DNA from: Rhodobacterales bacterium HTCC2255
GTDB taxonomy: Bacteria; Pseudomonadota; Alphaproteobacteria; Rhodobacterales; Rhodobacteraceae
Length of the DNA stretch: 64,000 nt
Direction: 5' to 3'
Assembly: GCA_000153745.1 (NCBI GenBank)
Contig: DS022282.1
Span: 230,027-294,026, forward strand
Positions 1,662 to 26,474 of this stretch are shown here, piece by piece. A program made the translations under genes and the position numbers. How positions within the stretch are numbered: position 1 is the stretch's first letter; each line of letters begins with the position of its first letter. Below the pieces are notes generated by a model. It was not told the DNA's origin, did no database searches, and saw only the letters and a list, made by a program, of their open reading frames with translations.

Positions 1662-2132
1662 ATGCGATATATACTGATATTTTTTATGATTATTTCCACG
1701 CCTTGCTTTGCGGGCATCGAAAAAGCTCGTGACCTTATGGAAAGTGGAGATTTTAAAGAGGCCTACAATGAATTGTTGCCCGCTGCACGATCTGGTAACG
1801 CTGATGCTGAAGAACTTATTGGCGTAATGTACGCAATGGGACAAGGCGTTGAAAAAGATGATCAAAGAGCTTTTGAATGGTATTTGCGCGCGTCTATGAA
1901 GGGTCATCCAGGAGCCCAATCCGGGATTGGATGGTACTATGAGGTTGGTCGTGGTGTCGTTGGTATAGATTTGGTCAGATCTTATATGTGGTATACCCTT
2001 AGTGCAATCGGAGGTGACCCTGACGCAGCTATCTCGCTGGAAGAGGTAGTTAAAAAAATGTCTAAAGAAGAAATTAATAAAGCTCATATTTTGGTCAATG
2101 ATTATAAAGTTTGGATGTATCCATTTAGATAA
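1662..2132 (+). CDS. Secreted Sel1-repeat (TPR-like) protein
   Basis: A 156-residue exported protein. The first 17 residues (MRYILIFFMIISTPCFA) form a typical signal peptide. It is followed by Sel1/TPR-like repeats: A-EELIGVMYAMGQGVEKDDQRAFEWYLRAS at about residues 49-79 and AQSGIGWYYEVGRGVVGIDLVRSYMWYTLSA at about 86-116. Sel1 repeats act as protein-interaction scaffolds; the partner is unknown. The ATG at 1662 is supported by a Shine-Dalgarno-like AGGA 8 bases upstream. It is divergent from the di-heme peroxidase with only 18 bases between the two start codons, so the two may share a control region or a periplasmic function. It ends at a strong bidirectional hairpin. Confidence 0.85.
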   Translation: MRYILIFFMIISTPCFAGIEKARDLMESGDFKEAYNELLPAARSGNADAEELIGVMYAMGQGVEKDDQRAFEWYLRASMKGHPGAQSGIGWYYEVGRGVVGIDLVRSYMWYTLSAIGGDPDAAISLEEVVKKMSKEEINKAHILVNDYKVWMYPFR

Positions 2133-2175: not shown

Positions 2176-3237
2176 CTAATTTAAGTCAGCGGCACGAGCA
2201 CTTCCGACTTCTGAGTTTGCTTCACTTACAGCATCGGTAAGTGCAGTAAATATCTCATCACCACGATTTACGTTATTTTTAAACCAATCATAAACTGGTG
2301 TTGCTGCTTCTGCAAAAGCAGCTTTTTGTGAAGGCGTTGGAACATATAAGTCTCCACCACCGGCTACAAAGTCTGCATATGCTTGAATTGATTTACGTTT
2401 AGGTGAAGCAAATGTTGCTTGTTGAAGAGCATAAAAACCATCATTTACAACTGCACGCATATCTTCCGGCATTGATGTGAAGGTTTTGTTAGACATCCAC
2501 CATAGTGCACCCATATATGCGTGACCATCTAATGTTACATATTGTAATCCAGCATCTGGAAATTTCATACCCATAATATCAGTGATGCCATTTTTAGAAC
2601 CTTCTACTACACCAGTTTGGAATGATGTAAATAATTCAGGCCATGGGATTGGAGTTGGGGAAGCACCTAGTGCTTTAACCAATTCTTGAGGTAAATCAGC
2701 AACAACAGTTCTTATTTTTAGCCCTGCCATATCGCTTGGCTCAGCAACTCTACGACGAGTATTAGCAAAGTTTCTCCAACCACCAGTATTACCAATAGTC
2801 ATTAAACGTATTGAATCATCAGAATCCTCAAGTGCCATTGAGCGCATTTTTCTAGTAAAATCTCCAGATAAAACATGTTCCGCTATGCGGTCATCTGCCA
2901 TTAAGTATGGTAAATCTAGAACTTGTACATATGGGAATATGCCTGCAGCGCCACCAGATGTAGAAATATAAACATCTATGGATCCATCAGCTACGCCTTG
3001 TAAACATTCAGCGCCATTTGAGCAAAGTTGGGTACCAATAAATAATTCAACTTCTATTGCTCCGTTAGATGCTGCTTCTACGTAATTTTTAAATACGACA
3101 AGACCATCATAATCCTCATCATTTTCATTTGAATTCGCAGTTGCACGAATTTTAAAAGTGTCTGCAACAACACCAGTAAATGATGAACCTGCTAAGATAG
3201 CAGCTATTGTTAAAGTTTTAATTGTTTTTGTGAGCAT
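2176..3237 (-). CDS. dctP: TRAP transporter periplasmic substrate-binding protein (DctP family)
   Basis: Periplasmic solute receptor of a TRAP transporter, 353 residues. It has a signal peptide (MLTKTIKTLTIAAILAGSSFTGVVA) and the DctP-family core. The conserved binding-site region includes LKIRTVVADLPQELVKALGASPTPIPWPELFTSFQTGVVEG at about residues 185-225, whose family arginine (IRT) binds a carboxylate or similar anion. The ATG at 3237 is chosen because GGGAGGAAC sits just upstream; an upstream in-frame start would add 11 residues. It is the last gene of a six-gene operon with the small and large TRAP membrane subunits and three oxidative enzymes, suggesting the ligand is the substrate of those enzymes, perhaps an organosulfonate rather than a C4-dicarboxylate (inference). 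Confidence 0.9.
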   Translation of the reverse strand: MLTKTIKTLTIAAILAGSSFTGVVADTFKIRATANSNENDEDYDGLVVFKNYVEAASNGAIEVELFIGTQLCSNGAECLQGVADGSIDVYISTSGGAAGIFPYVQVLDLPYLMADDRIAEHVLSGDFTRKMRSMALEDSDDSIRLMTIGNTGGWRNFANTRRRVAEPSDMAGLKIRTVVADLPQELVKALGASPTPIPWPELFTSFQTGVVEGSKNGITDIMGMKFPDAGLQYVTLDGHAYMGALWWMSNKTFTSMPEDMRAVVNDGFYALQQATFASPKRKSIQAYADFVAGGGDLYVPTPSQKAAFAEAATPVYDWFKNNVNRGDEIFTALTDAVSEANSEVGSARAADLN

Positions 3238-3259
3238 TTTGTTCCTCCCTAATACTCGT

Positions 3260-4549
3260 TTATTGTACAAAGCCTGTAAGCCTTGGTATAGTCATTGAAA
3301 GCGCAGGTATGTATGTGATTAAAAAAATCACAACGATTTCTACCGCCAGAAACGGTAGTATCGCTTTTGCAATTGCTTCGACGCGCTCGCCCGAAACTGC
3401 AGATGCAACAAAAAGTACTAATCCCATTGGTGGTGTCGCCAGTCCAACTGTTAGATTAACACTCATAATAATAGCAAAATGGATTGGATCTATTCCTAAA
3501 TTTATAAAAATTGGACCTAAAATTGGGCCTAGGATGATTATTGCAGGCCCGGCATCCAAAAACATTCCTACTATGAAAAGTAAAATATTAATTAAAAATA
3601 ATAATAATAGTGGGTTACTCGTTAGTGTAAGTATAAAAGCCGCTAATTGCTCAGGTGCATGACTAAGGCTAACAACAGTTTTGAATGCCATTGCGGCACC
3701 AACCAAAAGTAATACTACAGATGATGTTATTCCTGCTCTAGTTATCACACCCGACAAATCACTAATCTTCAAACTTCGTAATACAAATATTCCAATGAAT
3801 AATGCGTATGCAACGGCAACAGCGGCCGCTTCAGTTGGAGTAAATATCCCACCTAGAATACCACCAAGAATAATTACAGGCGTTAATAAAGGAAAAAATG
3901 CTTTTAAACTTGCTTTTCCTCGTTCTGGCCACGTATATTTATTAGTTGCTATTGGAAAATCATATTTATTGGCCATGAATTTGACCATTAACATTAATCC
4001 AATACCAACCATGGCTCCTGGTATAACACCAGCTAAAAATAATGCTGCTACGCTTTCTCCCATTACATATGCGTATATAATCATAATACCAGAAGGTGGT
4101 ATGATTGGGCCTATTACAGAACTTGCTGCGGTAATAGCTGCTGCAAATTTCCTTGAATATCCCTGTTTTTCCATGGCTGGAATTAACATTGAACCCAGAG
4201 CAGAAGTATCTGCAACTGCTGAGCCTGACAATCCAGCAAATAACATGGATGATAAAACATTTACATGCGCTAACCCGCCCCTTAGGTGCCCCATAAATGC
4301 TTGAGAGAATTCTACAAGACGCATGGTTATTCCCCCCCTGTTCATAAGCTCACCCGCGAGCATGAAAAAAGGGATTGCCATTAAAGGAAAACTATCAATT
4401 CCATTATATACGTTTCTATACAATAAAGTGATGTCTCGTTCTTGACCATTCAAATATAAAAGTAGACCTGGAGCAGCTAAAAGGCCAAAGAAGACAGGTA
4501 AACCAATTAGTAGAAAAAACAAAAATACAGGTAAAAACCAAATCAACAT
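3260..4549 (-). CDS. dctM: TRAP transporter large membrane subunit (DctM family)
   Basis: Large transmembrane subunit of a TRAP transporter, 429 residues with about 12 hydrophobic segments. It carries the DctM signatures SSMLFAGLSGSAVADTSALGSMLIPAM and ASSVIGPIIPPSGIMIIYA in the first half, and GMFLDAGPAIIILGPILGPI and NLTVGLATPPMGLVLFV in the second. It uses a sodium or proton gradient to import the ligand delivered by DctP. Its ATG overlaps the stop codon of the dctQ gene in a TAATG arrangement, indicating translational coupling; dctP follows 22 bases after the stop. Confidence 0.93.
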   Translation of the reverse strand: MLIWFLPVFLFFLLIGLPVFFGLLAAPGLLLYLNGQERDITLLYRNVYNGIDSFPLMAIPFFMLAGELMNRGGITMRLVEFSQAFMGHLRGGLAHVNVLSSMLFAGLSGSAVADTSALGSMLIPAMEKQGYSRKFAAAITAASSVIGPIIPPSGIMIIYAYVMGESVAALFLAGVIPGAMVGIGLMLMVKFMANKYDFPIATNKYTWPERGKASLKAFFPLLTPVIILGGILGGIFTPTEAAAVAVAYALFIGIFVLRSLKISDLSGVITRAGITSSVVLLLVGAAMAFKTVVSLSHAPEQLAAFILTLTSNPLLLLFLINILLFIVGMFLDAGPAIIILGPILGPIFINLGIDPIHFAIIMSVNLTVGLATPPMGLVLFVASAVSGERVEAIAKAILPFLAVEIVVIFLITYIPALSMTIPRLTGFVQ

Positions 4550-5157
4550 TATGTAATCTCCATGCTTGTATCATCATGGATTTTTGGTAGTAAATTACCT
4601 TTACCTAGTTTAAAAATTATATTTCTTCCTATTAATTCTAAATTTACCAGTATTAATAATACACACCCAATTAACAAAGACATCATCATCCAAGATCTTG
4701 GTATTCTGTACCAATTTTGTAAATCGATAGACACTGGGATATACAAAGATGCTGTAGCAAACCTTCCACCGAAGCCTGTTACTTCTGCATATCCAATTTG
4801 AACTGAAGTAATCAACACAAGTAAAGATAATAATAAAAGAACCATGGATAATATTACATTAATAATGCTTGGAATAAATTGATTTATGAAATCAATAGCA
4901 ACAAATCCACCACGTCTAAAAGCTGTTGGAGCCATTAGTCCTGTCATCCATAACATGCAAAATCTTGCAGCTTCATCTGGCCAAGGGAGTGCATTGTTCA
5001 GAATATATCTGAAAAATACTTGAATTAAAATTGCAACAACCATTAAGACTACTGCTAATACTCCAAGGTTTCTGCAAATTCTTAGAATAAAATTGTTAAA
5101 TTTACATAACACTTGCATGATAAATATCAACAAAGACATATTTTGCATTCCCCCCAT
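4549..5157 (-). CDS. dctQ: TRAP transporter small membrane subunit (DctQ family)
   Basis: Small membrane subunit of the TRAP transporter, about 200 residues with four hydrophobic segments. It has the DctQ-type motif QVFFRYILNNALPWPDEAARFCMLWMTGLMAPTAFRRGGFVAIDF at about residues 45-90. It stabilises the DctM subunit. The start is uncertain: ATGs at 5157, 5148 and 5139 are all in frame, and a G-rich stretch that could act as ribosome site fits the ATG at 5139 best. It lies 22 bases downstream of the flavin reductase gene and is translationally coupled to dctM. Confidence 0.88.
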   Translation of the reverse strand: MGGMQNMSLLIFIMQVLCKFNNFILRICRNLGVLAVVLMVVAILIQVFFRYILNNALPWPDEAARFCMLWMTGLMAPTAFRRGGFVAIDFINQFIPSIINVILSMVLLLLSLLVLITSVQIGYAEVTGFGGRFATASLYIPVSIDLQNWYRIPRSWMMMSLLIGCVLLILVNLELIGRNIIFKLGKGNLLPKIHDDTSMEIT

Positions 5158-5179
5158 CTATAAATGTAAGCATTTCTAT

Positions 5180-5686
5180 TCATTTTCCTAGTTCTTTAGA
5201 TTTAATTTCTCCAAATTCACCAGAATAAAATGATAATGCATTACCTGTACTTTCAAGAGCATTGTCTACTTTTCCTATAATGATTTTATGATCGCCTGCA
5301 TCATGCATATCAAATTTGCGACAATGAAATCTTGCCAAGCAATTATCAATTAAAGGAACACCCTCATTTGATGTGCTGTGTGCAATTGTATCAAAAGCAT
5401 TTTTATTTTTAACAAATTCACTACATAATTGATATTGATCAGAGTTAAGTACATGAACTGCAAAATATTCTGCAGCTTCAAAATATTTAAATCTTGAAGA
5501 TTTTTTATCAGGAGCCCACATAATTAAAGCAGGATCTAACGAAATAGATGAAAAACTGTTTACTGTCATGCCAATATGGCCGTCTAAACTATCACATGAA
5601 ACAATGGTTACTCCTGTTGCAAATCTACTAAATGCATTACGTAGCATTTTTGTATTACTAGAATTAGGTGTGAATTCCGTAAACAT
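5180..5686 (-). CDS. Flavin reductase (NAD(P)H:FMN, HpaC/DIM6 family), SmoA-like
   Basis: A 168-residue flavin reductase-like protein of the FMN-binding split-barrel family. The family signature is clear: LRNAFSRFATGVTIVSC near the N-terminus, GMTVNSFSSISLDPALIMW, then FAVHVLNSDQ. Such proteins make free reduced flavin for a two-component monooxygenase. The ATG at 5686 is preceded by TGGAGG at an ideal distance, whereas the in-frame ATG at 5707 has no ribosome site. It sits in one operon with an SsuD-like monooxygenase and an aldo/keto reductase, so it most probably supplies FMNH2 to that monooxygenase. This matches the role of SmoA in the oxidative sulfoquinovose pathway (inference). Confidence 0.85.
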   Translation of the reverse strand: MFTEFTPNSSNTKMLRNAFSRFATGVTIVSCDSLDGHIGMTVNSFSSISLDPALIMWAPDKKSSRFKYFEAAEYFAVHVLNSDQYQLCSEFVKNKNAFDTIAHSTSNEGVPLIDNCLARFHCRKFDMHDAGDHKIIIGKVDNALESTGNALSFYSGEFGEIKSKELGK

Positions 5687-5706
5687 GTCTATGCCTCCAT
5701 CGGCCA

Positions 5707-6597
5707 TTATGCCACTTCCCTACCTAGTGCTGCAGTATATAAATCAAACCATGTAATTCGATCCATTTTAACTTTAAGTGCATCACTTATTCTTAAAATT
5801 CGGTCGATATTATTAGTTCCCATAATTGGAATTATATTAGCTGGATGACTTAATAAAAACGATATAGCTACTGCCGAGCGATCTACGTTATGTTGCAATC
5901 CAATTTGATCCATTTTTTCTGTAAGTTCGGAGTTCCCAGTCATTAGTTTACCGCCACCTAATGGCGACCATGCCATAATTGGCGATGCATTTTTTTGATG
6001 AAAAGCAACATCTCCATTTGAAAAAGCATCGACAGATTGCAAAGATAATTCTATTTGATTTGTATATAGTTTATTAACCATACCAGATTGCAATAATTCC
6101 CAATCATATGGTTTGAAATTTGATACACCTACCGCACCAACTTTTCCAGATTTGATCAATGCATCAAGAGCATGACCTGTTTCATTATGATCCATATAAG
6201 GATCAGGTCTATGAATTAACAACATATCTATATGGTCAATGTTCATATTTTTTAATGATGAATTTACAGATGCATCGATATGTTTTTTTGATGTATCGTA
6301 ATACTTAACAGGTACATCTGCATATTTTCCACATGGTGCAACTATTCCACATTTTGTAACAATTTCAATTTTATTTCTTAAAGATTTGTCTTCTTTTAAT
6401 GCTAGACCAAACATTTCCTCTGCAGAATAATCACCGTAAATATCCGCCTGGTCAAATGTTGTAATACCTTGTTCGAGACATAAGTTAATTTTATCTTTTA
6501 CAGATTTAACACCATTATTTTCACCATCGGCTAGGCGCCACATTCCATATATGATTTGACTAAATTCTAATGTGTCGTTTATCTTAATTCTATTCAT
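5707..6597 (-). CDS. Aldo/keto reductase, SmoB-like candidate
   Basis: A 296-residue NAD(P)H-dependent aldo/keto reductase of the YdhF-like group. The catalytic tetrad is visible: Asp and Tyr in FDQADIYGDYSAEEMFG (about residues 49-65), Lys in IEIVTKCGI and His in IDMLLIHRPDPYMD. The coenzyme-binding ends include GAVGVSNFKPYDWELL, WSPLGGGKL and PIMGTNNIDRI. It would reduce an aldehyde, plausibly the one released when the neighbouring monooxygenase removes sulfite from a CH2-sulfonate. In sulfo-SMO pathways the reductase SmoB does this with 6-dehydroglucose. It is coupled to the gene upstream by a TAATG overlap. The substrate is inferred. Confidence 0.85.
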   Translation of the reverse strand: MNRIKINDTLEFSQIIYGMWRLADGENNGVKSVKDKINLCLEQGITTFDQADIYGDYSAEEMFGLALKEDKSLRNKIEIVTKCGIVAPCGKYADVPVKYYDTSKKHIDASVNSSLKNMNIDHIDMLLIHRPDPYMDHNETGHALDALIKSGKVGAVGVSNFKPYDWELLQSGMVNKLYTNQIELSLQSVDAFSNGDVAFHQKNASPIMAWSPLGGGKLMTGNSELTEKMDQIGLQHNVDRSAVAISFLLSHPANIIPIMGTNNIDRILRISDALKVKMDRITWFDLYTAALGREVA

Positions 6598-7751
6598 TAT
6601 TTTCTAATTCCTATACCTAGAGGTGTTGAAGGAGTTTCATTTGGAACACGCCCATAAACATTTGGTAGTGAACATGTTTTAAGATATGGTAAAACTTTAG
6701 AACCGAAATGTTTTGCTTCATCAATGTGCGGATAACCCGAAAAAATAAAAGCTCTTATACCCATTTTTTCGTATTCATCTATCTTAGACAATATTTGATC
6801 TGATGATCCGACTAACGCTGCTCCACACCCAGAACGAGCACGCCCTACTCCAGTCCATAGGTTTGGTTCTATATAACCATATTTATCAGCAATCTCTCTA
6901 TTTTTTGATTGATGTGAAACTCCCAAAGATGTCGAGTCTAATGCCCTATCACGTATCATTTTGCCATATTCATCATCTAATTTTGATGTTATGTATTCTG
7001 CATATTCTTGTGCCTCTTGCTCAGTATCACGTACTATAACATGCACTCTTAGACCATAATCTAATGTTCTTTTATATTTTTTTGCAATATCATTAACTGC
7101 TCGCATACGATTTGCTAGCTCTTCTTTTTTTTCTGGCCACATTAAGTATACATCACAATGTTCGCCGCAAAGCTCTAATGCTGAAGGTGAATAACCCCCA
7201 AAATATAATAATGGACCATTTTTTTGATAAGGAACCACAGGTGAAGTATCAATATTTTCAAAATTATATATATTACCTTTGTGATTTATAAAATCTTTTG
7301 TCCAAGCCTGTTTCAAAATTTCGACAACTTCTCGGGACCTTTGATATCTATATGTACTGTCTTCTGTTTGCCCAGGGAAATCAGAACTTATTATATTTAT
7401 TGTCAATCTGCCACTTAACATGTGATCGAGTGTCGCAATTGTTCTCGCAAGCATAATTGGCTGCATTTCGCCACATCTAACAGCAGCAAGTAAATTGATA
7501 TCAGTTGTTAAAGGTGCACAACCTGCGACAAACGATAAAGTATCTTGCCCTACTTGATAAGATGAAGGACATAGAATGTTATTAAATTTATGTTTCTCAG
7601 CTTCTGTGACAATTTTGGAACAATGATCCCAGCTTGATCTTAAATTTCCATCTGGAACGCCTAGAAATTGATAATCATCTGAACAGAGTGCCGAAAACCA
7701 TGAAATTTCACTTGAATCTAGATTTGATGATTTGATTGGCACGACGGTCAT
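6597..7751 (-). CDS. LLM-class flavin-dependent monooxygenase, SsuD/SmoC-like sulfonate monooxygenase
   Basis: A 384-residue luciferase-like FMNH2-dependent monooxygenase resembling alkanesulfonate monooxygenase SsuD. It shows ARTIATLDHMLSGRLTINIISSDFPGQTE (about residues 102-130), the YFGGYSPSALELC strand and the SsuD-type segment GVGRARSGCGAALVGSSDQI near residue 300. SsuD relatives cleave a C-sulfonate bond to give aldehyde and sulfite. Co-transcription with a flavin reductase, an aldo/keto reductase and a TRAP importer supports oxidative desulfonation of an imported sulfonate; sulfoquinovose is the leading candidate because this enzyme trio matches SmoA-SmoB-SmoC. It is the first gene of the operon and diverges from a GntR regulator. 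Confidence 0.85.
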   Translation of the reverse strand: MTVVPIKSSNLDSSEISWFSALCSDDYQFLGVPDGNLRSSWDHCSKIVTEAEKHKFNNILCPSSYQVGQDTLSFVAGCAPLTTDINLLAAVRCGEMQPIMLARTIATLDHMLSGRLTINIISSDFPGQTEDSTYRYQRSREVVEILKQAWTKDFINHKGNIYNFENIDTSPVVPYQKNGPLLYFGGYSPSALELCGEHCDVYLMWPEKKEELANRMRAVNDIAKKYKRTLDYGLRVHVIVRDTEQEAQEYAEYITSKLDDEYGKMIRDRALDSTSLGVSHQSKNREIADKYGYIEPNLWTGVGRARSGCGAALVGSSDQILSKIDEYEKMGIRAFIFSGYPHIDEAKHFGSKVLPYLKTCSLPNVYGRVPNETPSTPLGIGIRK

Positions 7752-7778
7752 TATATTTACTTTCAGTAATTGTTAGGG

Positions 7779-7810
7779 ATTGATTAGCATCCCAAACTAT
7801 GTAAATCAAT
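7779..7810. promoter_or_regulatory. Candidate operator in the divergent promoter region
   Basis: The 90-base gap between the monooxygenase operon and the GntR gene contains ATTGATT at 7779-7785 and its exact inverse AATCAAT at 7804-7810, 18 bases apart. A further ATCAAT copy follows at about 7816. The position suits a site for the adjacent GntR regulator, but short AT-rich repeats also arise by chance. Confidence 0.3.
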
Positions 7811-7841
7811 GGTGTATCAATTTTAGGTTTTGAGATTAATA

Positions 7842-8552
7842 ATGATTACTTCAAATGAAAATTTTTATAATTTACCAAAATATATACAAATATCTGAATT
7901 GTTAATACGAGATATTGTGTCTGGAAGATTAATCGATGGAGAAAGATTACCACCAGAAAGAGTGCTGGCTAGCACCCTAAATGTAACAGTAACAACACTG
8001 CGTAAGTCACTGAAAGTAATAGCTAAAAAAGGAATGATTAAACAAATTCAAGGATCTGGTAACTATGTATGTCATGGTGTTAAGGATGACAGTGTTTATG
8101 CTATGTTTAGACTTGAATTGCTTGATGGTGGAGGATTACCAAGCGCAAAATTCATTGAAATAAAGCAATTAGATAAACCCTCAAATATTCCAGACTTTGG
8201 AACATCAAGCAAAGCTACAAGAATGCGAAGAATAAGATATCTAAATAAAACAATCATAGGACTTGAAGAAATTTGGTTAGATTCTGATGAAGGAATTGTT
8301 AAAAAAAATCAAGTATCAGATTCGCTGTATCATTATTATAGGACACGGTTAGGTTTTTGGATAACACATGCAGAAGATAGGGTAAGTATTAAGCCCCTTC
8401 CCGATTGGACACCTAAGGATTTTTCTTTGCCTCATGGTACTATTACAGGTTTTATAGAACGATTTAGTTGGTCTGAGAAATCAAAGCCAATTGAATATTC
8501 AAAAACGTGGTACGATACAAATAACGCACATTATGTGCAAAGATTAAAATAG
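7842..8552 (+). CDS. GntR-family regulator (HutC/UTRA type)
   Basis: A 236-residue regulator with an N-terminal GntR winged helix (LPKYIQISELLIRDIVSGRLIDGERLPPERVLASTLNVTVTTLRKSLKVIAKKGMIKQIQGSGNYV, about residues 10-75). A C-terminal UTRA-like effector domain begins near VYAMFRLELLDGGGLPSAKFIEI. UTRA domains bind small ligands, often sugars or their derivatives. The ATG at 7842 is preferred over a TTG 12 bases upstream. The gene is divergent from the monooxygenase-TRAP operon and 8 bases from the Gfo/Idh gene, so it likely represses both until the substrate or a product appears. SmoR/SmoD-like in role by context only. Confidence 0.85.
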   Translation: MITSNENFYNLPKYIQISELLIRDIVSGRLIDGERLPPERVLASTLNVTVTTLRKSLKVIAKKGMIKQIQGSGNYVCHGVKDDSVYAMFRLELLDGGGLPSAKFIEIKQLDKPSNIPDFGTSSKATRMRRIRYLNKTIIGLEEIWLDSDEGIVKKNQVSDSLYHYYRTRLGFWITHAEDRVSIKPLPDWTPKDFSLPHGTITGFIERFSWSEKSKPIEYSKTWYDTNNAHYVQRLK

Positions 8553-8560
8553 GAATTTTT

Positions 8561-9679
8561 ATGACAAAAGTAATACACTACGGAATAATTGGCTGTGGCA
8601 TGATGGGGCAAGAACACTTAAGAAATATAGCTTTATTAAAAGATACTAATGTAAAAGCAATATACGAGCCAGATATAGAAATGGCAAAAAAAGCTTACGC
8701 ACTTGCTCCCAATGCAATTTTCACTCATACTATCAATGACTTATTGAGTATAGATGATATTGATTGTTTACTGATTGTTAGTCCAAATTTTTGTCATATT
8801 GATCAATTAATGCAGATATTAGATAAAAGACATATTCCTATTCTAATTGAAAAGCCACTTTTCACTAACGAAAACGATGTGGCTAAATTAAAAAAATTTA
8901 GAGATGCATATAAATCTCATGTTTGGGTCGCAATGGAGTATCGATATATGCCGCCAATTCAAGCGCTTAGTGAAAAAATTCTACAATCAACTGGAAAAAT
9001 CAATATGCTCACAATCAAAGAGCATCGCTTTCCTTTTCTAGAAAAAGTAAATGATTGGAATAGGTTTAATAAATATTCTGGTGGAACATTAGTTGAAAAA
9101 TGTTGTCATTTTTTTGATTTAATGAGGTTACTTATAAAGTCTGAACCGATAAGGATAATGGCTAGTGCAAGTCAATCAGTTAATCATTTAGATGAATCAT
9201 ACGATGGCAAAACTCCAGATATAATTGATAATGCTTATGTAATTGTTGAATTTAAGAATAATGTCAGAGCTATGCTTGAATTATGTATGTTTGCAGAAGG
9301 GTCAAGGTATCAAGAAGAAATTTCTGCTGTTGGGCCAATTGGCAAAATAGAAGCATTAGTGCCAGGTCCAGGAAGGTTTTGGCCTGAGCATCTAGGCCCT
9401 GCCCCAACTCCAAAATTAATTATTAGCCCAAGAAAACCTCAAGGGCCAATACATGAAGATATATTTGTAGATGAAGAGTTACTAAATGCCGGTGATCATA
9501 ATGGATCGACCTTTTTTCAGCATCAAAAATTCCTTGAATTAGTCAGAGGTAACTTACAGTTGCCTGAAGTTTCGCTTCTTGATGGGTGGAAAGCAGTTGC
9601 GATGGGATTAGCAGCACAAAAGAGCGCTGAAACTGGATTATCAGTAGATTTGCTTGATAAAAACAATTATCCAACCTAA
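8561..9679 (+). CDS. Gfo/Idh/MocA-family NAD-dependent protein, possible NAD-dependent sulfoquinovosidase
   Basis: A 372-residue two-domain protein. The N-terminal Rossmann fold starts with GIIGCGMMGQEHLRNI, has the family motif IEKPLF near residue 107 and VAMEYRYMPP near residue 125. The C-terminal domain includes EHRFPFLEKVNDWNRF and SGGTLVEKCCHFFDLMRLL, with the His-x3-Asp type active-site region at about residues 178-192. Family members are sugar dehydrogenases, but some are NAD-dependent glycosidases; the sulfoquinovosidases of family GH188 have this fold. Beside a sulfo-SMO-like enzyme trio, and with no GH31 sulfoquinovosidase in the window, that role is attractive but unproven. A plain sugar dehydrogenase is the alternative. 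AGGA 8 bases before the ATG supports the start. Confidence 0.8.
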   Translation: MTKVIHYGIIGCGMMGQEHLRNIALLKDTNVKAIYEPDIEMAKKAYALAPNAIFTHTINDLLSIDDIDCLLIVSPNFCHIDQLMQILDKRHIPILIEKPLFTNENDVAKLKKFRDAYKSHVWVAMEYRYMPPIQALSEKILQSTGKINMLTIKEHRFPFLEKVNDWNRFNKYSGGTLVEKCCHFFDLMRLLIKSEPIRIMASASQSVNHLDESYDGKTPDIIDNAYVIVEFKNNVRAMLELCMFAEGSRYQEEISAVGPIGKIEALVPGPGRFWPEHLGPAPTPKLIISPRKPQGPIHEDIFVDEELLNAGDHNGSTFFQHQKFLELVRGNLQLPEVSLLDGWKAVAMGLAAQKSAETGLSVDLLDKNNYPT

Positions 9680-9795
9680 CCAGATAATTTAATAAGTAGA
9701 AAAGAAATGTTTTTGAGCCATATATAGTTAATGCAATTCAATGTGGTCGATATAACCGTCATGTGTAGTTGTAGCTAATTCTAAGGGTGTGCACG

Positions 9796-11331
9796 ATGAC
9801 ATTAAGGCTAATATTAGGTGATCAACTTAGTGAAACTATATCCAGTTTACGAGACGTAGATAAATTAAATGACAATATTTTAATTTGCGAAGTAAAATCT
9901 GAAGCAACGTATGTTAAACACCACAAGAAAAAAATTGCATTTCTATTCTCTGCTATGCGACATTTTTCAAAATTTCTTGAAGGTTTGAACTACAATTTAA
10001 CTTACATAAAGTATGATGATTCAGGAAATAGTGGTAGCCTTTATGGCGAAGTGAAAAGAGCTATTCTAACTAATAATCATGAAAAAATTGTTATCACAAA
10101 ACCAAACGAATTTAGATTGTACTTAGAAATGCTAGAATGGGAAAATAAGTTAAATATTCCTGTTGAAATAAGAGATGATGATAGATTTCTTTGCTCTACT
10201 GATGAATTTAACACTTGGGCAAGTGACAGAAAACAGCTCAGGATGGAGTATTTTTATCGAAATATGAGACGGAAATACGATATTTTGATGGAAGGTGATG
10301 AACCTATTGGGGGTCAATGGAATTTTGACAGCGAAAACCGAAAACCACCAAAAAACGGCTTGGATGTTCCTAAAAGTTATTCAACACAACCTGATAAAAT
10401 TACAATGGAGGTTATTAATCTTGTTGAAAAGTCTTTCAATGACCATTTTGGAGACTTAAAACCATTTAACTTTGCAGTGACACGACAGCAAGCTTTGGTT
10501 GTATTAGATGAATTTATAGATAAGCGATTATCTATGTTTGGTGATTTTCAAGATGCCATGATTGAGGGTGAACCTTGGATGTTTCATAGTCATATAAGTT
10601 TTTATTTAAATTGCGGCCTACTCACACCATTAGAATGTATAAAGGCTGTAGAAAGAGCTTATTACGACAATAGAGCGCCACTTAATGCTGTTGAAGGTTT
10701 CATAAGGCAAGTTTTGGGATGGAGAGAATATATTAGAGGTGTGTATTGGTATAAAATGCCAACTTACAAAAGTGAAAACTTTTTGGAAGCACACAGAAAA
10801 TTACCTGAATTCTATTGGACAGGCCAAACTGACATGAATTGTTTGAAACAATGCATTAATGAAACAAAAGAAAACTCTTATGCACACCATATACAAAGAC
10901 TTATGGTGCTTGGTAATTTTGTTTTATTGGCTGGTATTAATCCAGATGATGTTCATGAATGGTATCTTTCAGTTTACTCAGATGCATATGAATGGGTTGA
11001 GTTGCCAAATGTAACTGGTATGATTTTATACGCAGATGGTGGCATTCTGGCATCAAAGCCATATGCTGCTAGTGGCGCTTATATAAATAGAATGTCAAAT
11101 TACTGTAAAAATTGTCATTACAAAGTGAGTTCAAAAACTGGAGAAGATGCATGTCCATTTAATTATTTATATTGGGATTTTTTAATAAGAAATGAAACTA
11201 AGCTAAGAAATAATCCTAGAATGGGCCTTATTTATAGAAATTTAGATAAAATGAAATTAGATAAGTATGAAGCCATTAAATCTGATAGTAATATTTTTCT
11301 TAAACATATTGATAAAAATGAAAAAATCTAA
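9796..11331 (+). CDS. phrB: Iron-sulfur bacterial cryptochrome/(6-4) photolyase (FeS-BCP, PhrB type)
   Basis: A 511-residue FAD enzyme of the FeS-BCP group, whose Agrobacterium member repairs (6-4) photoproducts with light. The N-terminal half begins LRLILGDQLSETI. The FAD domain includes NAVEGFIRQVLGWREYIRGVYW and HHIQRLMVLGNF. The four [4Fe-4S] ligands are all present: Cys349 (DMNCLKQC), Cys437 and Cys440 (YCKNCHY) and Cys453 (EDACPF). Their spacing matches, one residue shifted, Agrobacterium PhrB (350/438/441/454, from memory). The ATG at 9796 has AAGG 8 bases upstream; a GTG at 9787 is less likely. Its 3' end overlaps the DUF2256 gene by 14 bases. Confidence 0.93.
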   Translation: MTLRLILGDQLSETISSLRDVDKLNDNILICEVKSEATYVKHHKKKIAFLFSAMRHFSKFLEGLNYNLTYIKYDDSGNSGSLYGEVKRAILTNNHEKIVITKPNEFRLYLEMLEWENKLNIPVEIRDDDRFLCSTDEFNTWASDRKQLRMEYFYRNMRRKYDILMEGDEPIGGQWNFDSENRKPPKNGLDVPKSYSTQPDKITMEVINLVEKSFNDHFGDLKPFNFAVTRQQALVVLDEFIDKRLSMFGDFQDAMIEGEPWMFHSHISFYLNCGLLTPLECIKAVERAYYDNRAPLNAVEGFIRQVLGWREYIRGVYWYKMPTYKSENFLEAHRKLPEFYWTGQTDMNCLKQCINETKENSYAHHIQRLMVLGNFVLLAGINPDDVHEWYLSVYSDAYEWVELPNVTGMILYADGGILASKPYAASGAYINRMSNYCKNCHYKVSSKTGEDACPFNYLYWDFLIRNETKLRNNPRMGLIYRNLDKMKLDKYEAIKSDSNIFLKHIDKNEKI

Positions 11332-11452
11332 CTTACCCACTAAAGTTTGTGTAAAGTGCGATCGTCCATTCACATGGCGTAAAAAATGGAAAAATGTATG
11401 GAATGAAGTAAAATATTGTTCTGAAAGATGTAAACGTGAAAAGAACACTTGA
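11318..11452 (+). CDS. DUF2256 small zinc-ribbon-like protein
   Basis: A 44-residue protein with two CxxC-type pairs, VCVKCDRPFTWRKKW and VKYCSERCKREK, matching DUF2256. The four cysteines probably bind zinc. DUF2256 genes commonly neighbour photolyase/cryptochrome genes; the molecular role is unknown. The ATG at 11318 lies inside the end of the upstream photolyase gene, and the stop overlaps the start of the next photolyase gene by 17 bases, so the three genes appear translationally coupled. An upstream in-frame start at 11267 would only add sequence overlapping the photolyase and is not favoured. Confidence 0.85.
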   Translation: MKKSNLPTKVCVKCDRPFTWRKKWKNVWNEVKYCSERCKREKNT

Positions 11453-12995
11453 TGCGATAAATATTGTTTGGTTCAAACGAGATCTCAGAACTAACGACCA
11501 TGCACCTTTATTAAACGCTTCACAGCAGAATACCCCTATATTACCGATTTATGTAGTAGAGCCAGATTATTGGAAAACTGAGAGCAGTTCACGTAAGCAT
11601 TGGCACTTCATATATGACTGTCTTGTCGATTTAAATAATGAATTAAATGACTTAGGTCAGCCTTTAATTGTACAAACAGGTGATGTTGTAGATATCTTTA
11701 TACAGATAAGTGAAATATTTGACATAAAAAACATATATTCTCATGAAGAGACTGGCAATATGTGGACATACGAGCGTGACAAAAGAGTGCAAGTTTGGTG
11801 CAAAAAAAATGCCATAGGTCAGAAGGAATACCCATCAAACGGAGTTGTTAGAAAACTTTCATCACGAGATGATTGGTCTAAAATTCGCAACAAAAGAATG
11901 TCAGAAAAAATTTATCCAAAACCTGATTATATTAATCCAATCAAAAAAAATGTTTACAGTACAATACCCAATAAAGATGATGAATTATTTGGTACTCCCA
12001 TCATTGGAAGAGTACAAAGAGGTGGAAGAATAAAAGCAATATGTGATTTGAAGAGTTTTTTAAATGAGAGGTCTAGCAATTATTTATATCATATATCGGC
12101 ACCTGGAAAATCAGAAAAATATTGTTCTCGACTATCAGCACACTTAACTTGGGGGTCTTTATCAGTAAGAGAAATTGTTCAATCTATAAAAAAACGTAGA
12201 TTACAGTTTTGTGATGATGATAAAAAAATTTATGGTAGAAATTTGTCAGCCTTTAATTCAAGATTAGCTTGGCGTTGTCATTTTATACAAAAGATTGAAT
12301 CTCAACCAAATATTGAAACACATTGCATGCATTCGGCTTTTGAAAGTTTGCGTAAAATTGATCCTGATGACAATAAATTCCTTGCATGGTCTAAAGGTAA
12401 CACTGGTTATCCTTTTGTTGATGCATGTATGCGAAACTTAATATCTGAGGGATGGATTACGTTTAGAATGAGGGCAATGTTAGTAAGTTTTGCAAGTTAT
12501 CAACTTTGGATTGATTGGCGTTTATCAGGCAATTACTTAGCAAAGCTTTTCACAGATTTTGAGCCAGGTATTCACTTTAGCCAACTGCAGATGCAATCTG
12601 GTGTGACTGGTATAAATGCAATGAGAGTTTATAACCCAATAAAACAATCTATTGAGCATGATATAAACGGTCATTTTATTAAAAAATGGGTTCCAGAGTT
12701 AATTGATCTACCTGAGAAATTTATACATGAACCATGGAAATATCATAATAATTTGGTAGATAATTGCAGTGTACAAATTGGACGTGATTATCCTTTTCCT
12801 ATTGTGGATCATGAACATGAGGCACGAATTGCGAAACAAAAGATCTCTAATGTAAGAAAAAATGAATTGTTTAAATATGAGTCACGTTTAGTATTTGAAA
12901 AACATGGAAGTAGAAAATCTAGGTCGAAAAGAAAATTTAATACTAATCAAAAATCAAAAGTATCAATTGATAATAAACAGTTAAAACTTTTTTGA
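11436..12995 (+). CDS. Second cryptochrome/deoxyribodipyrimidine photolyase family protein
   Basis: A 519-residue flavoprotein of the photolyase/cryptochrome family. The N-terminal photolyase domain opens with NIVWFKRDLRTNDHAPLL. The FAD-binding domain carries SRLSAHLTWGSLSVREI, WRCHFIQKIE, GNTGYPFVDACMRNLISEGWITFRMRAMLVSFASYQLWIDWR and the segment FEPGIHFSQLQMQSGVTGINAMRVYNP. The C-terminus is lysine/arginine-rich. Repair of cyclobutane dimers or a sensory role are both possible; pairing with an FeS-BCP enzyme would give cover for both major UV lesions (inference). Its ATG lies within the DUF2256 gene. The light-harvesting cofactor cannot be told from sequence. Confidence 0.88.
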   Translation: MKRTLDAINIVWFKRDLRTNDHAPLLNASQQNTPILPIYVVEPDYWKTESSSRKHWHFIYDCLVDLNNELNDLGQPLIVQTGDVVDIFIQISEIFDIKNIYSHEETGNMWTYERDKRVQVWCKKNAIGQKEYPSNGVVRKLSSRDDWSKIRNKRMSEKIYPKPDYINPIKKNVYSTIPNKDDELFGTPIIGRVQRGGRIKAICDLKSFLNERSSNYLYHISAPGKSEKYCSRLSAHLTWGSLSVREIVQSIKKRRLQFCDDDKKIYGRNLSAFNSRLAWRCHFIQKIESQPNIETHCMHSAFESLRKIDPDDNKFLAWSKGNTGYPFVDACMRNLISEGWITFRMRAMLVSFASYQLWIDWRLSGNYLAKLFTDFEPGIHFSQLQMQSGVTGINAMRVYNPIKQSIEHDINGHFIKKWVPELIDLPEKFIHEPWKYHNNLVDNCSVQIGRDYPFPIVDHEHEARIAKQKISNVRKNELFKYESRLVFEKHGSRKSRSKRKFNTNQKSKVSIDNKQLKLF

Positions 12996-22484: not shown

Positions 22485-24008
22485 CTAATTTGTAATTTCG
22501 AGTAATTTAATACGTTGTATTTTTCCAGAAGGCCCTTTTGGCAACTCATCAAGAAAATATATACGGTCTGGAGCTTTAAATTTACCCAGTTTTGAACGAC
22601 AAAGCTCAATGAATTCATCCTCAGAGGCGATACTATTAATGGACAGCCTTATTGCTGCTTCAATTCTTTGGCCATAAATATCGCAAGGAATAGCAAACGC
22701 AGCTGCTTCAATTACATCTTTGTGTGCATATAATGCATCATCTATTTCTCTAGGAGATATATTCTCCCCTCCCTTGATAATTAATTCCTTTAATCTGCCA
22801 GAGACAAAAACATATCCATCATCATCCATATATCCTAGATCACCCGTAAGTAGCCATCCACCATTTATAAATGTTGATTGCGTAGCTTCAATATTATCAA
22901 GATACTCAAGCATTATGTTGGGTCCCTTTACAGCTATTTCTCCAATGATATTTACCAATTGATCCGAGCCATCATCTTTTAAAATTTTAACATCATTTCC
23001 AAATGCTATACCAGGTGATCCAATTTTACGTTGTTTTGGTGGTAAAGGATTTGATAAAATTTGAGCAGCTGTTTCTGTTAATCCCATAGTTTCTATTATA
23101 GGTACTCCAAATCTATTTTCAAAATTTGACTGTGTATCAATAGCCAAAGGAGCAGATGCTGATCTACCAAAACGTAGGTTCTTACAAACAATTTTGCTAG
23201 GATCATTTTTCCCATGTAAAAGGTGTGATATGATTGTTGGAACCACTGAAAACCATGTAATTGTATATTTTTCACAGTCTTGCCAAAACTTTGAACTTGA
23301 AAACTTTGGACAAATAACACTTGATCCACCAGATATCAAAGGAGCCATCACAGTCACACAAAGTCCATTTATATGATAAAGTGGAAGAACGCACAGCGCC
23401 CTATCATTTGGATCCAATTCATGAGCAACCGAAGTTGTCCAGCCACCTGCTAATAGACTGGAATGTGTATGAATAACACCTTTTGGTACGCCAGTAGTTC
23501 CTGAAGTATACATTAATAATGCATGATCATCTGGCGTTAAGTCGTGAAATTGAATATTATTTTTAATATTTTCAAATGTGTTATTTTTGACATTTATAGT
23601 TGTTGGGTTTGCATTCGTTTCTTCAAGAGCATTTGATAGTATTTCAGATTGTTCATCATCATATAATATATAATTACATTTACTATGTGAAATTGCATGT
23701 CCAAGTGCCGCTGGACCAGCCGCAAGATTAAGTGGGGTCACCCTAAATCCACCATAAATAATTGCATAAAAGATTTGTAGCGCATTGCTTCCATTTGACA
23801 TGCAGATCGCAACACTTTCGCCTTTCTTTATATCTAACTGAATAAGAAATTTTGAAATAGAAATAACTTTTTTTAATAAACCTGACCATGTAAGATCAGA
23901 GCTATTATCTGAGAATTGATAGCATATCCTATCAGGTGATTTTTCAGCATGGTAGTTCAACCAGTCACGTATAGTACCATCTGGTTTAGATTTAGGTGAG
24001 TAAATCAT
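22485..24008 (-). CDS. AMP-forming acyl-CoA synthetase, sulfoacetate-CoA ligase (SauT)-like candidate
   Basis: A 507-residue ANL-superfamily adenylate-forming ligase. The P-loop MYTSGTTGVPKGVIHTHSSL lies at about residues 165-184, the ETMGLTETAAQILSNP motif at about 310, and the hinge region GWLLTGDLGYMDDDGYVFVSGRLKELIIKGGENISPREID at about 390-425. The catalytic C-terminal lysine is in PKGPSGKIQRIK. It activates a carboxylate to its CoA thioester. It is translationally coupled (ATGA) to a CoA-acylating aldehyde dehydrogenase, the same enzyme pair as SauT-SauS of sulfoacetate degradation in Cupriavidus necator. With Xsc and Pta in this window, sulfoacetate is a reasonable substrate; another short acid is possible. 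Confidence 0.8.
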   Translation of the reverse strand: MIYSPKSKPDGTIRDWLNYHAEKSPDRICYQFSDNSSDLTWSGLLKKVISISKFLIQLDIKKGESVAICMSNGSNALQIFYAIIYGGFRVTPLNLAAGPAALGHAISHSKCNYILYDDEQSEILSNALEETNANPTTINVKNNTFENIKNNIQFHDLTPDDHALLMYTSGTTGVPKGVIHTHSSLLAGGWTTSVAHELDPNDRALCVLPLYHINGLCVTVMAPLISGGSSVICPKFSSSKFWQDCEKYTITWFSVVPTIISHLLHGKNDPSKIVCKNLRFGRSASAPLAIDTQSNFENRFGVPIIETMGLTETAAQILSNPLPPKQRKIGSPGIAFGNDVKILKDDGSDQLVNIIGEIAVKGPNIMLEYLDNIEATQSTFINGGWLLTGDLGYMDDDGYVFVSGRLKELIIKGGENISPREIDDALYAHKDVIEAAAFAIPCDIYGQRIEAAIRLSINSIASEDEFIELCRSKLGKFKAPDRIYFLDELPKGPSGKIQRIKLLEITN

Positions 24009-25414
24009 TTTCCAGCATTACTCCAGTATTTATCAAAGATATCAGAGAGTAAGGGTTCATTATGTGGTATTTCATTTACTATTTTTGTTACATTTAAAAA
24101 GTGTTTCCAGTGCAAATTGTCGTCAATAGAGTTCCCACCCCAACTGCCACATCCCATTGATAATGAAAAAGGCATACCATTATTAAAAGAACCGCCAGTA
24201 GCAAAGCAATGTGCTTGATTAACGATTACTCTACAAGTTGGCAATCTCATTGCTAATTCATTTGCTCTAAGTTGCACTTTTGTATGAATGCCAATTGAGT
24301 GCCCTGCTCCATAATGTTTTAACATTTTTTCAGCTTTAATAATGGAGTCTGAAAAATCTTTTGCTCTGTAAATAGAAATTACACGGGATAGCTTTTCACC
24401 AGAGAGTGGGTAGCCTTCACCAATTCCATCTGTTTCAATTCCAATAATTTTTGTATCTTCAGGGACATTGCTTTCTAAACCTAAAGCAACAATTAATTTT
24501 TTTGCATCTTGAGCTACAGCATCTCTATTTAATTGACCTTTTTTCCACAATCGTTCTGTTATTTTTTTTTGTAAGGATTTTTCTAGAGTTACACATCCTA
24601 CTAAAGACAACTCTTTAATAAACGCATCATAAATTTCATCGATGATAATAAGTGAGTTTTCAGATGAGCATGATGTAGCGTTATCGAATGTTTTTGAGGC
24701 GGCTATTTTTACTGCTGCATCTTTTAAATTCGATGTTTCATCAATAATAACAGTTACATTTCCAGCACCAACACCAATTGCAGGAGTTCCAGACGTATAA
24801 GCTCTGCGAACATTGTTTTGAGATCCTGTAACTATAACTAGATCAGTCTCCTCTAACATTTGTTGGGTTTTTATTTTTGTTCCAGGTGCAGGTATCATTT
24901 GAACGAGATCTTTATTTATCCCACACTTTTCAAATTCTGCATGAATAAAATGTATGAGACGCTCGCACCCAGCTATACCTTTTGGAGATGGTGAGATTAT
25001 AATTGCATTACCACATTTTAAAGAGTTTATAATATTATTTGCGGGAGTTGCTATTGGGTTTGTTGATGGAACCACGGCCCCAATTACACCAATTGCTCTG
25101 GCAATTTTAATAATTCCCTTATCAATATTTTCATCAATAACGCCATAAGATTTTACTTTAGAGATATCTCTTAATAAGCCTAATGTTTTACGATGATTTT
25201 TTGTAATTTTATCTTCTATATTACCCAAACCAGTACTTAAAACAGCTAATGTAGCTAGTTCTTTATTTCTACTTGGCTCCATAATTGCCCAACCAACTGC
25301 TTGAGCAGCAGTATCATATTTTTCTTGCGAACCATTCTTTTCAAAGTCAGTTTGAGCTATTCTTGCTCTTTTTATGATTTGATTTACTTCTTGAATTTCT
25401 GATTGATCTGGCAT
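24005..25414 (-). CDS. CoA-acylating aldehyde dehydrogenase, sulfoacetaldehyde dehydrogenase (SauS)-like candidate
   Basis: A 469-residue CoA-acylating aldehyde dehydrogenase of the EutE/PduP/SauS group. The catalytic cysteine is Cys249 in KTFDNATSCSSENS. Other signatures are GVIGAVVPSTNPIATPANNIINSLKCGNAIIISPSPK at about residues 113-150, GVGAGNVTVIID, and the C-terminal CFATGGSFNNGMPFSLSMGCGSWGGNS with no EutE-type N-terminal targeting peptide. Working in the reductive direction it would turn the acyl-CoA from the coupled ligase into the aldehyde. The product sulfoacetaldehyde would feed Xsc (57173-58951). It follows tctC after a hairpin. Confidence 0.82.
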   Translation of the reverse strand: MPDQSEIQEVNQIIKRARIAQTDFEKNGSQEKYDTAAQAVGWAIMEPSRNKELATLAVLSTGLGNIEDKITKNHRKTLGLLRDISKVKSYGVIDENIDKGIIKIARAIGVIGAVVPSTNPIATPANNIINSLKCGNAIIISPSPKGIAGCERLIHFIHAEFEKCGINKDLVQMIPAPGTKIKTQQMLEETDLVIVTGSQNNVRRAYTSGTPAIGVGAGNVTVIIDETSNLKDAAVKIAASKTFDNATSCSSENSLIIIDEIYDAFIKELSLVGCVTLEKSLQKKITERLWKKGQLNRDAVAQDAKKLIVALGLESNVPEDTKIIGIETDGIGEGYPLSGEKLSRVISIYRAKDFSDSIIKAEKMLKHYGAGHSIGIHTKVQLRANELAMRLPTCRVIVNQAHCFATGGSFNNGMPFSLSMGCGSWGGNSIDDNLHWKHFLNVTKIVNEIPHNEPLLSDIFDKYWSNAGK

Positions 25415-25434
25415 TTGTTACCTATTTTCTTAAA

Positions 25435-25463
25435 ATAGAGGCAGAATAATTTTCCGCCTCTAT
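25435..25463 (-). terminator. Hairpin between tctC and the aldehyde dehydrogenase gene
   Basis: ATAGAGGC (25435-25442) pairs with GCCTCTAT (25456-25463). On the minus strand it is followed by TTTTAAG. It lies just downstream of the tctC stop and before the next operon gene, so it probably acts as an attenuator or RNA stabiliser for the binding-protein message. Confidence 0.65.
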
Positions 25464-25478
25464 ATCAGTTTTATAAAA

Positions 25479-26435
25479 TTAAAGACCTTTTAAAAGTTCT
25501 TCTAATGTTGTTTGACGTTTCGCCCACATATCTAAAACTTCAGCTCTGTTCATAATTTTCATTGGTGAACCACCTGCCTTCATTTTTTGCGCAACACGTT
25601 TATGTTTAAACATTTCAGGAACAACAGATGCTAATTTGTCAATAACTGCTTGTGGAGTTCCTTTTGGTACCATTACACCCCTGAAGTTTACTGATGTATT
25701 ATCAACGTCTAAACCTTGTTCCATCATAGTAGGTACATCTGGTAAAAATGCATTTCGCTCAAGATCAGCAACCCCAAGTATTTTTATTGTACCAGCTTTT
25801 TGTGCACGGAACGCATCTGATAAATTATTAACACCAGCGAGCACTTCTCCACTAATTACGGCTTTCATTGCTCCTGCACCACCAGATTTATTTGGTATGT
25901 ACAACATCTTTACACCAGCTGCTTTTTCTATTTGTAAAGCTGCAATATGATGTCCTACAAATAAACCAGCACCTGAAAATGTCAGCTTTCCTGGATTGGC
26001 TTTTGCAAAATCAACAACATCAGACATAGAATTGAAATTGCTGTCTTTTCCAACTACGAAAACCGCGGGATCAGAACCCCAATTTGCAATCGGTTCAAAG
26101 CTATCTGTAGAATAATCAACTCCGCCTTTTATAGATTGAGCAATAAAGTGTGGAACGTTATAACCGCCCATTGTGTATCCATCTTTTTCTGCATTGTTTG
26201 CAAACCAATTCCACCCTACTCTACCACCTGCACCAGGCTTGTTTATGATAGCTACAGGCATTCCAAGCATATCATCATTACCTGCAGGGATTGTTGCTAT
26301 TCTAGCCTGAAAGTCAGTTGCTCCACCTGCCCCATAAGGTATCATCAATAAAACTGGCCTTTCAGGATATTCTGCTTTCGCAACTCCTGATATTCCAATT
26401 AGCGAAACTGCTAATGCTGCTATAATCTTTTTCAT
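25479..26435 (-). CDS. tctC: Tripartite tricarboxylate transporter binding protein TctC
   Basis: A 318-residue periplasmic binding protein of the TctC/Bug family. The signal peptide MKKIIAALAVSLIGISGVAKA precedes EYPERPVLLMIPYGAGGATDFQAR, the family opening that forms the carboxylate pocket. Next come INKPGAGGRVGWNWFA, LTFSGAGLFVGHHIAALQIEKAAGVKMLYIPNKSGGAGAMKAVISGEVLAG and GTIKILGVADLERNAFLPDVPTMMEQG. Binding proteins of this family take up diverse carboxylates. Here the likely ligand is the acid activated by the downstream CoA ligase. GGGAGGAG lies upstream of the ATG. Confidence 0.93.
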   Translation of the reverse strand: MKKIIAALAVSLIGISGVAKAEYPERPVLLMIPYGAGGATDFQARIATIPAGNDDMLGMPVAIINKPGAGGRVGWNWFANNAEKDGYTMGGYNVPHFIAQSIKGGVDYSTDSFEPIANWGSDPAVFVVGKDSNFNSMSDVVDFAKANPGKLTFSGAGLFVGHHIAALQIEKAAGVKMLYIPNKSGGAGAMKAVISGEVLAGVNNLSDAFRAQKAGTIKILGVADLERNAFLPDVPTMMEQGLDVDNTSVNFRGVMVPKGTPQAVIDKLASVVPEMFKHKRVAQKMKAGGSPMKIMNRAEVLDMWAKRQTTLEELLKGL

Positions 26436-26474
26436 GTTTTTCTCCTCCCTAGAGATTTATGCTGTATTATACAG

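Follow-up and report, generated by a model that had tools for sequence, protein, structure and literature searches.

A TRAP-linked locus of the sulfo-SMO type, predicted to degrade sulfoquinovose, in Rhodobacterales bacterium HTCC2255, and its importer beside a second sulfoquinovose pathway in related bacteria

A stretch of 64,000 nucleotides from Rhodobacterales bacterium HTCC2255 (contig DS022282.1; the window, throughout this text) carries at positions 2176..9679 a locus that is very probably a complete sulfolytic operon of the sulfoquinovose monooxygenase (sulfo-SMO) type, directed at the sulfolipid head group and fed by a tripartite ATP-independent periplasmic (TRAP) transporter. In this system, the transporter DctPQM would import sulfoquinovose (SQ), a sulfur sugar found in the membranes of plants and algae, or sulfoquinovosyl glycerol (SQGro), and SqgA, a cytoplasmic enzyme of glycoside hydrolase family 188 (GH188), would split SQ from glycerol using NAD+. 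SmoA would make reduced flavin mononucleotide (FMNH2), with which SmoC, together with O2, would cut the C-S bond to give sulfite and 6-dehydroglucose; SmoB would then reduce the latter to glucose, which could enter the Entner-Doudoroff route via glucokinase, Zwf, Edd and Eda. A GntR/UTRA protein would control the divergent promoters, probably at TTGATACACYATTGAT. The initial annotation of this DNA had proposed enzymes of the SmoC, SmoB and SmoA types, dctQ-dctM-dctP, a divergent GntR/UTRA regulator and a Gfo/Idh protein, and in open reading frame (ORF) and Pfam searches of the window all eight genes were found uninterrupted and of the types proposed.

The sulfo-SMO (sulfo-ASMO) pathway of Agrobacterium and Novosphingobium, which was reportedly described by Sharma in 2022, has the same core of SmoC, SmoB and a flavin reductase, and likewise proceeds by C-S cleavage to sulfite and glucose; the sulfoquinovosidase in these bacteria is a GH31 enzyme. 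This pathway is treated as established in the review passages available (PMC9594981, PMC12890257), and its importer is given there as an ATP-binding cassette (ABC) system (PMC9594981), as opposed to the TRAP transporter and GH188 enzyme seen here. Closer to the present locus are the Roseobacter-clade clusters presented in the main text of Kaur 2023 (PMC10755693), which combine SMO enzymes with GH188 and have no GH31; that main text is silent on the importer and on the Sel1 and MauG genes. The same source puts the yearly turnover of SQ, by synthesis and degradation, at about 10 billion tons, and Roseobacter-clade bacteria are counted among the marine SQ users in the accounts at hand (PMC10755693, PMC12890257). 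The pathway itself is known; what is of interest is the TRAP transporter as a gate for SQ, for which the evidence comes from swapping of pathways, and the di-heme and Sel1 proteins linked to it.

The assignment of SmoC was made via the titles of Protein Data Bank entries: its identity is 70-71% to two crystal structures whose titles call them sulfoquinovose-desulfurizing enzymes and 31-33% to MsuD and SsuD, and on this comparison it is of the SQ monooxygenase and not of the SsuD/MsuD type. Phylogenetic placement against SsuD had been named as a check on the initial sulfo-SMO reading, which this grouping bears out together with the results for SmoB and the Gfo/Idh protein. A predicted SmoB lies next to SmoC, as the sulfo-SMO pathway asks, and matches 7bby/7bbz, which we take to be SmoB, at 370 bits over its full length, with the next entry at 189 bits. 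Separately, a second group of SmoC-like proteins with about 50% identity was seen in 12 short loci (L012, L013, L042-L051); according to tblastn, a SmoB-like aldo/keto reductase lies beside the gene in 11 of these and a GH188-like gene in 9, and the group probably belongs to the wider sulfo-SMO family.

The Gfo/Idh protein is, by its sequence matches, a GH188 NAD+-dependent sulfoquinovosidase. It scores 507 bits against 8zn9, which is named merely 'Oxidoreductase, putative', and 340 and 334 bits against 8qc3 and 8qc2, with the next structure at 51 bits; its NAD-binding and C-terminal domains (PF01408, PF02894) fit membership in the family. The structures of FlSqgA and ArSqgA from the study that founded GH188 (Kaur 2023, PMC10755693) are entries 8QC2 and 8QC3; that study gives the contacts of ArSqgA with SQ as R166, L170 and K172 (sulfonate) and K107, Y136, E189, H193 and H321. 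All eight are kept in the window's protein, as R156, L160, K162, K98, Y127, E179, H183 and H313, respectively. Glu163 of the same paper lacks a placed equivalent, the nearest Glu being one position further in the alignment. By motif search, four GH188 active-site blocks are all kept in 59 of 60 related reading frames, and three of the four in the remaining one. An identity as inositol dehydrogenase was also considered and rejected, as the IolG model gives 92 bits (cut-off 355) compared with 340-507 bits for GH188 and related structures. A search of the organism's own genome for GH31 gave 0 matches to PF01055 at E <= 0.001.

The order of these genes is kept among relatives. Conservation was followed in 80 named loci with a close SmoC, which are the best 80 of at least 585 confirmed and hence near relatives. 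The gene smoB follows smoC in all 70 related loci whose DNA reaches far enough, and smoA is found in 66 of these 70; upstream, GH188 is present in 71 of the 73 loci with sufficient DNA, and gntR stands beside smoC in all 73 with upstream DNA. Because the order of smoB, smoA and GH188 is so regularly kept, the gene set appears to be more than a chance arrangement. The importer behind smoA could be counted in 70 of the 80 loci (at least 5.5 kb behind smoC; 10 dropped for short flanks) and was TRAP in 51, ABC in 9, neither in 10 and both in none, where these labels rest on tblastn with a small set of query proteins; other importers may be present in the 10 'neither' loci. Ruegeria sp. TM1040 (megaplasmid) and Rhizobium sp. 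SL42 (plasmid) share this gene order all the way from Gfo/Idh to dctP, with the genes annotated by family names; TM1040 also carries the Sel1 gene (as a 'tetratricopeptide repeat protein') and the MauG-like gene (as a 'cytochrome c peroxidase') described below, and SL42 is without both. The initial annotation had presented the TRAP system and the Gfo/Idh protein as taking the places of an ABC importer and a GH31 enzyme. As to function this was right, but neither exchange is an oddity: GH188 is reported as near-universal in the sulfo-SMO clusters of the Roseobacter clade (Kaur 2023, PMC10755693), so that the change from GH31 to GH188 was already known, and among the near relatives covered here more loci have the TRAP form than any other.

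The three TRAP genes dctP, dctQ and dctM are all present and adjacent. The likely cargo of the transporter was approached through 198 genomes sampled from the family, with one search each and up to 10 DctP candidates scored per genome; a DctP ortholog was a match of at least 513.6 bits (at least 68% identity), the next match lying at 339 bits. SmoC was found in 88 of these genomes, the DctP ortholog in 72 and both in 54, and Fisher tests on such counts leave relatedness uncorrected. In 50 of the 54 genomes with both, the two genes lie on one contig, 3.3-4.9 kb apart; in the other 4 they are on different contigs. Of greater weight are the 18 genomes that have DctP without SmoC. In 12 of them (L132-L140, L143, L145, L148), a PfkB kinase, a LacD/DeoC-type aldolase, an SQ-isomerase-like gene and GH188 lie near the TRAP genes, a make-up of the sulfo-Embden-Meyerhof-Parnas (sulfo-EMP) type; the neighbourhood also includes a DeoR regulator in every one of these except L139 (11 of 12) and an aldose epimerase in seven (L133, L134, L137, L138, L139, L143, L148). 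Such sulfo-EMP/EMP2 clusters, of which the window holds none, share the TRAP genes and GH188 with the sulfo-SMO form in these 12 family genomes, and differ in cleaving a C-C instead of a C-S bond. Four further loci hold parts of one or the other set near DctP: kinase, isomerase and GH188 with no aldolase match (L146), smoB, smoA, gntR and GH188 (L141), GH188 and gntR with no pathway enzyme (L142), and smoB and smoA at a contig end (L144). In total, an SQ marker accompanies DctP in 70 of 72 genomes, through a SmoC somewhere in the genome in 54 and through neighbouring genes in 16. As a separate observation, L144 has no smoC, and upstream of its smoB-smoA-dctQM-dctP, on the opposite strand, lies a Rieske/ring-hydroxylating oxygenase gene (3010-4173, minus strand), which could be a substitute oxygenase or have no connection with the pathway.

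The same picture is given by the sequences of DctP itself. Identity to the window's DctP is 68-87% in the 29 aligned relatives, which include four from EMP-type loci. In a tree of 66 rows, with long branches for L157, L058 and L147, the SMO- and EMP-type members are intermixed: 7 changes are required for the label 'emp', with at least 6 of them forced by well-supported branches, and 6 for the label 'smo', with at least 4 of them forced. The TRAP-GH188 pair has been re-used repeatedly with a second SQ pathway. Because the partner pathway swaps between SMO and EMP type while TRAP and GH188 stay, SQ or its glycoside or glyceride is the cargo to which this genome context points. Named SQ importers are, in the published accounts at hand, ABC systems, or SftA for the sulfo-transaldolase (sulfo-TAL) pathway, and the main text of a survey of SQ pathways in aquatic genomes (PMC13372026) is without the words 'TRAP', 'transporter' and 'permease'. 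No TRAP importer for SQ was found among the titles and passages of the open-access literature searched, in which PMC10507020 and PMC6386719 deal with taurine, going by title or opening of the abstract; Liu 2023, on SQ use by Roseobacter, may report one, and priority is therefore not claimed. An importer assigned in this way could serve as a marine metagenome marker for SQ uptake that catches SMO- and EMP-type users alike, and DctP is a directly testable receptor.

Two further genes travel with the transporter, so that the conserved unit reaches to about 372, past the range first annotated. One encodes a Sel1-repeat protein, and the other a MauG-like protein which passes Pfam CCP_MauG and lies below the cut-offs of two NCBIfam models, TIGR03791 (100.9/443.85 bits) and the Hxs-associated TIGR03981 (265.8/340 bits); it is assigned as a di-heme protein of the cytochrome c peroxidase family. 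Among the 59 of 80 loci that could be counted (21 dropped for short flanks; the TRAP loci counted reach 9.9 kb or more past smoC), MauG is present in 29/41 TRAP loci and Sel1 in 30/41, compared with 1/18 and 0/18 in non-TRAP loci. In 11 of the 13 EMP-type loci, including L146, both genes lie <=3.2 kb from dctP. A bold reading of these data is that the MauG-like protein performs a periplasmic oxidation step tied to sulfolipid use, of which no mention was found in the literature searched. On this reading, DctPQM, GH188, Sel1 and the MauG-like protein would make up a portable module of marine Rhodobacterales for uptake of the sulfolipid head group, joined to a sulfo-SMO or a sulfo-EMP type of pathway and including both a sulfosugar TRAP importer and a periplasmic di-heme oxidation step; we offer this tentatively, as somewhat less than evenly probable.

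Alternatively, the Sel1 and MauG-like genes may be passengers beside the TRAP genes, an explanation that we also hold to be plausible while placing it below an even chance. The MauG gene is not nearby in 12 of the 41 TRAP loci nor in two of the 13 EMP-type loci (L132, L145), two genomes (G511, G565) have the ortholog with neither a SmoC nor a DctP ortholog, no mechanism is known, and shared ancestry means that the counts are not independent. Against this, 54 of the 56 genomes (out of 198) with the MauG ortholog hold a SmoC or DctP ortholog, including two (G553, G472) in which MauG sits at another place in the genome. The MauG ortholog lies within 20 kb of SmoC or DctP in 45/56, as opposed to 4/58 for a MauG paralog taken as control among the genomes listed, and it follows smoA in three loci where TRAP is missing (L104, L150, L151). 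Such linkage suggests a further step in sulfolipid use.

As for the transporter, the enzymes could degrade SQ while the cargo of the TRAP system is some other compound encountered together with it, such as a different sulfonate, an acidic sugar, or a product of sulfolipid breakdown that is neither SQ nor SQGro. We regard this as unlikely; the observations that follow speak for it or, more generally, against the reading of the locus as a TRAP-fed SQ operon. Compared with solved structures, DctP has its best match at 116 bits, to an entry with an uninformative name, and reaches only 92 bits with the isethionate-binding DctP (PDB 8t9t), which is also a TRAP solute-binding protein and binds a C2 sulfonate, not a sulfosugar. 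A structure model of DctP from 30 sequences has a mean predicted local distance difference test score (pLDDT) of 67, with residues 181-251 below 50, and is too weak for reading the pocket. The pairing is not strict either: 34 of the 88 SmoC genomes are without this DctP, no TRAP genes follow smoA in 19 of 70 SmoC loci, and on plasmid records with SmoC at >=73% identity a DctP at >=68% is found in 10 of 11. Two of the 72 DctP genomes have neither an SQ pathway enzyme nor GH188 nearby; the setting in one (L147) is a cupin and an AMP-ligase, where the sole resemblance is a flavin reductase with 40% identity to smoA, and in the other (L149) nagB-like and deacetylase-like genes. The isomerase-like gene of the EMP-type clusters gives 260 bits where the NCBIfam cut-off is 700, so that these clusters were called by make-up. 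SmoA, too, is predicted from fold and position: its flavin reductase domain is present, and the entries seen included no SmoA-specific model or solved SmoA. Against a different cargo stand the exchange of partner pathways around a constant TRAP and GH188, whose common ground is SQ and its glycosides, and the mutual exclusion of TRAP and ABC genes behind smoA. Plasmid records read the other way agree with SQ as cargo, since all ten with DctP at >=68% also have SmoC at >=73%; two more distant plasmid DctP matches (48% and 41%) had no smo, SQ-isomerase-like or GH188 gene nearby by tblastn.

The two remaining alternatives concern the substrate of the enzymes. SsuD and MsuD share a fold and flavin-dependent C-S cleavage with SmoC, and the operon could be for general organosulfonate desulfonation for sulfur, of the SsuD/MsuD kind, instead of SQ catabolism; the enzyme superfamily is the same and the best NCBIfam model for SmoC is the alkanesulfonate monooxygenase TIGR03565, but its score of 232.9 bits is far below the cut-off of 518.2, SsuD/MsuD systems have no sugar processing genes where GH188 regularly stands upstream here, and with SmoC far closer to the SQ monooxygenase structures such sulfur scavenging was rejected as very improbable. 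It is just as hard to credit another 6-sulfo-hexose such as sulfofucose, for which a pathway is described in a Paracoccus (PMC12421959) and which the indirect identification of the substrate might allow, when the GH188 members reported as tested act on SQ glycosides through residues kept here (PMC10755693) and the sulfofucose clusters, as published, have different enzymes and an ABC transporter.

Returning to the SQ operon, regulation by the GntR/UTRA protein would involve TTGATACACYATTGAT, a fair candidate for its operator. This motif is found upstream of smoC in 52 of the 80 loci, with 54 copies over all 80 and no exact copy in 28, and the copy in the gap between smoC and gntR (Table 1) is the sole exact one in the organism's own genome. 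As for the sulfite that SmoC would release, 14 loci among the 80 have an exporter of the YeiH type, and a search of 18 kb surrounding the locus in the window gave none; a search of the own genome for sulfite oxidation gave one DmsC-family and one Mo-co_dimer match.

The minus-strand set from smoC to dctP is likely one operon, because its overlaps and gaps are so short: one-base overlaps join smoC to smoB, smoB to smoA and dctQ to dctM, and 22-base gaps separate smoA from dctQ and dctM from dctP. The core genes had been placed correctly at the outset, and the changes concern two starts besides the longer conserved unit. For dctP, the start is most likely the ATG at 3237, which is preceded by GGGAGGAAC (GGGAGG) and whose column is the start in 28 of 29 aligned relatives, with L139 starting beside it, in an alignment that left out relatives with longer open frames. 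The start of gntR is most likely the ATG at 7842.

Table 1. Features of the sulfoquinovose locus in the window
Feature	Position	Strand	Assignment
MauG-like di-heme gene	372-1643, start uncertain	-	PF03150 CCP_MauG, 110 bits; two CxxCH; conserved neighbour
Sel1-repeat gene	1662-2132	+	PF08238; probably secreted; conserved neighbour beyond the range of the initial annotation
dctP	2176-3237 (ORF 2176-3270)	-	PF03480, 173 bits; TRAP solute-binding protein, predicted SQ/SQ-glyceride receptor
dctM	3260-4549	-	PF06808, 395 bits; TRAP large permease
dctQ	4549-5157	-	PF04290, 70.7 bits; TRAP small permease
smoA	5180-5707	-	Flavin_Reduct PF01613, 117 bits; predicted FMNH2 supplier, 175 aa
smoB	5707-6597	-	Aldo_ket_red PF00248; predicted 6-dehydroglucose reductase, 296 aa
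smoC	6597-7751	-	Bac_luciferase PF00296; predicted FMNH2-dependent sulfoquinovose monooxygenase, 384 aa
candidate operator TTGATACACCATTGAT	7805-7820	-	in smoC-gntR gap
gntR	7842-8552 (ORF 7830-8552)	+	PF00392 + PF07702; GntR/UTRA regulator, divergent from smoC
sqgA (Gfo/Idh/MocA)	8561-9679	+	PF01408 + PF02894; assigned as GH188 NAD+-dependent sulfoquinovosidase, 372 aa

The host genome is 2.30 Mb in size, and because the closest named smoC relative among the matches listed (92% identity) is from an Amylibacter metagenome-assembled genome, the host is placed in the Roseobacter group. Use of the glucose product by zwf, edd, eda and pgi in the same window had also been suggested. These genes are indeed present at 59175-63999, but they lie about 50 kb from the operon and are not part of it, and zwf is represented by its C-terminal part, which runs off the window; the own genome has one glucokinase. 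The locus is bordered beyond the MauG-like gene by a suf iron-sulfur gene cluster, named from its sequences (own contig, upstream of the window; L161 1485-8290), and directly behind the GH188 gene by two photolyase/cryptochrome-like genes side by side (9787-12995), as read from the ORFs with no family search.

Elsewhere in the window, positions 22485-28420 and 28503-29528 hold a likely sulfoacetate locus, in which SauS (acylating sulfoacetaldehyde dehydrogenase) scores 672 bits against a cut-off of 600. Its partners are an acyl-CoA ligase that may be SauT-like, a LacI-family regulator and a TctB-family gene flanked by genes for probable TctC and TctA, which have no NCBIfam match. Further along, at 56232-58951 and adjoining pgi-eda-edd-zwf, lie xsc, which codes for sulfoacetaldehyde acetyltransferase and scores 924 bits (cut-off 676), and a gene resembling phosphate acetyltransferase; the pair would represent a second sulfonate route within the same 64 kb.

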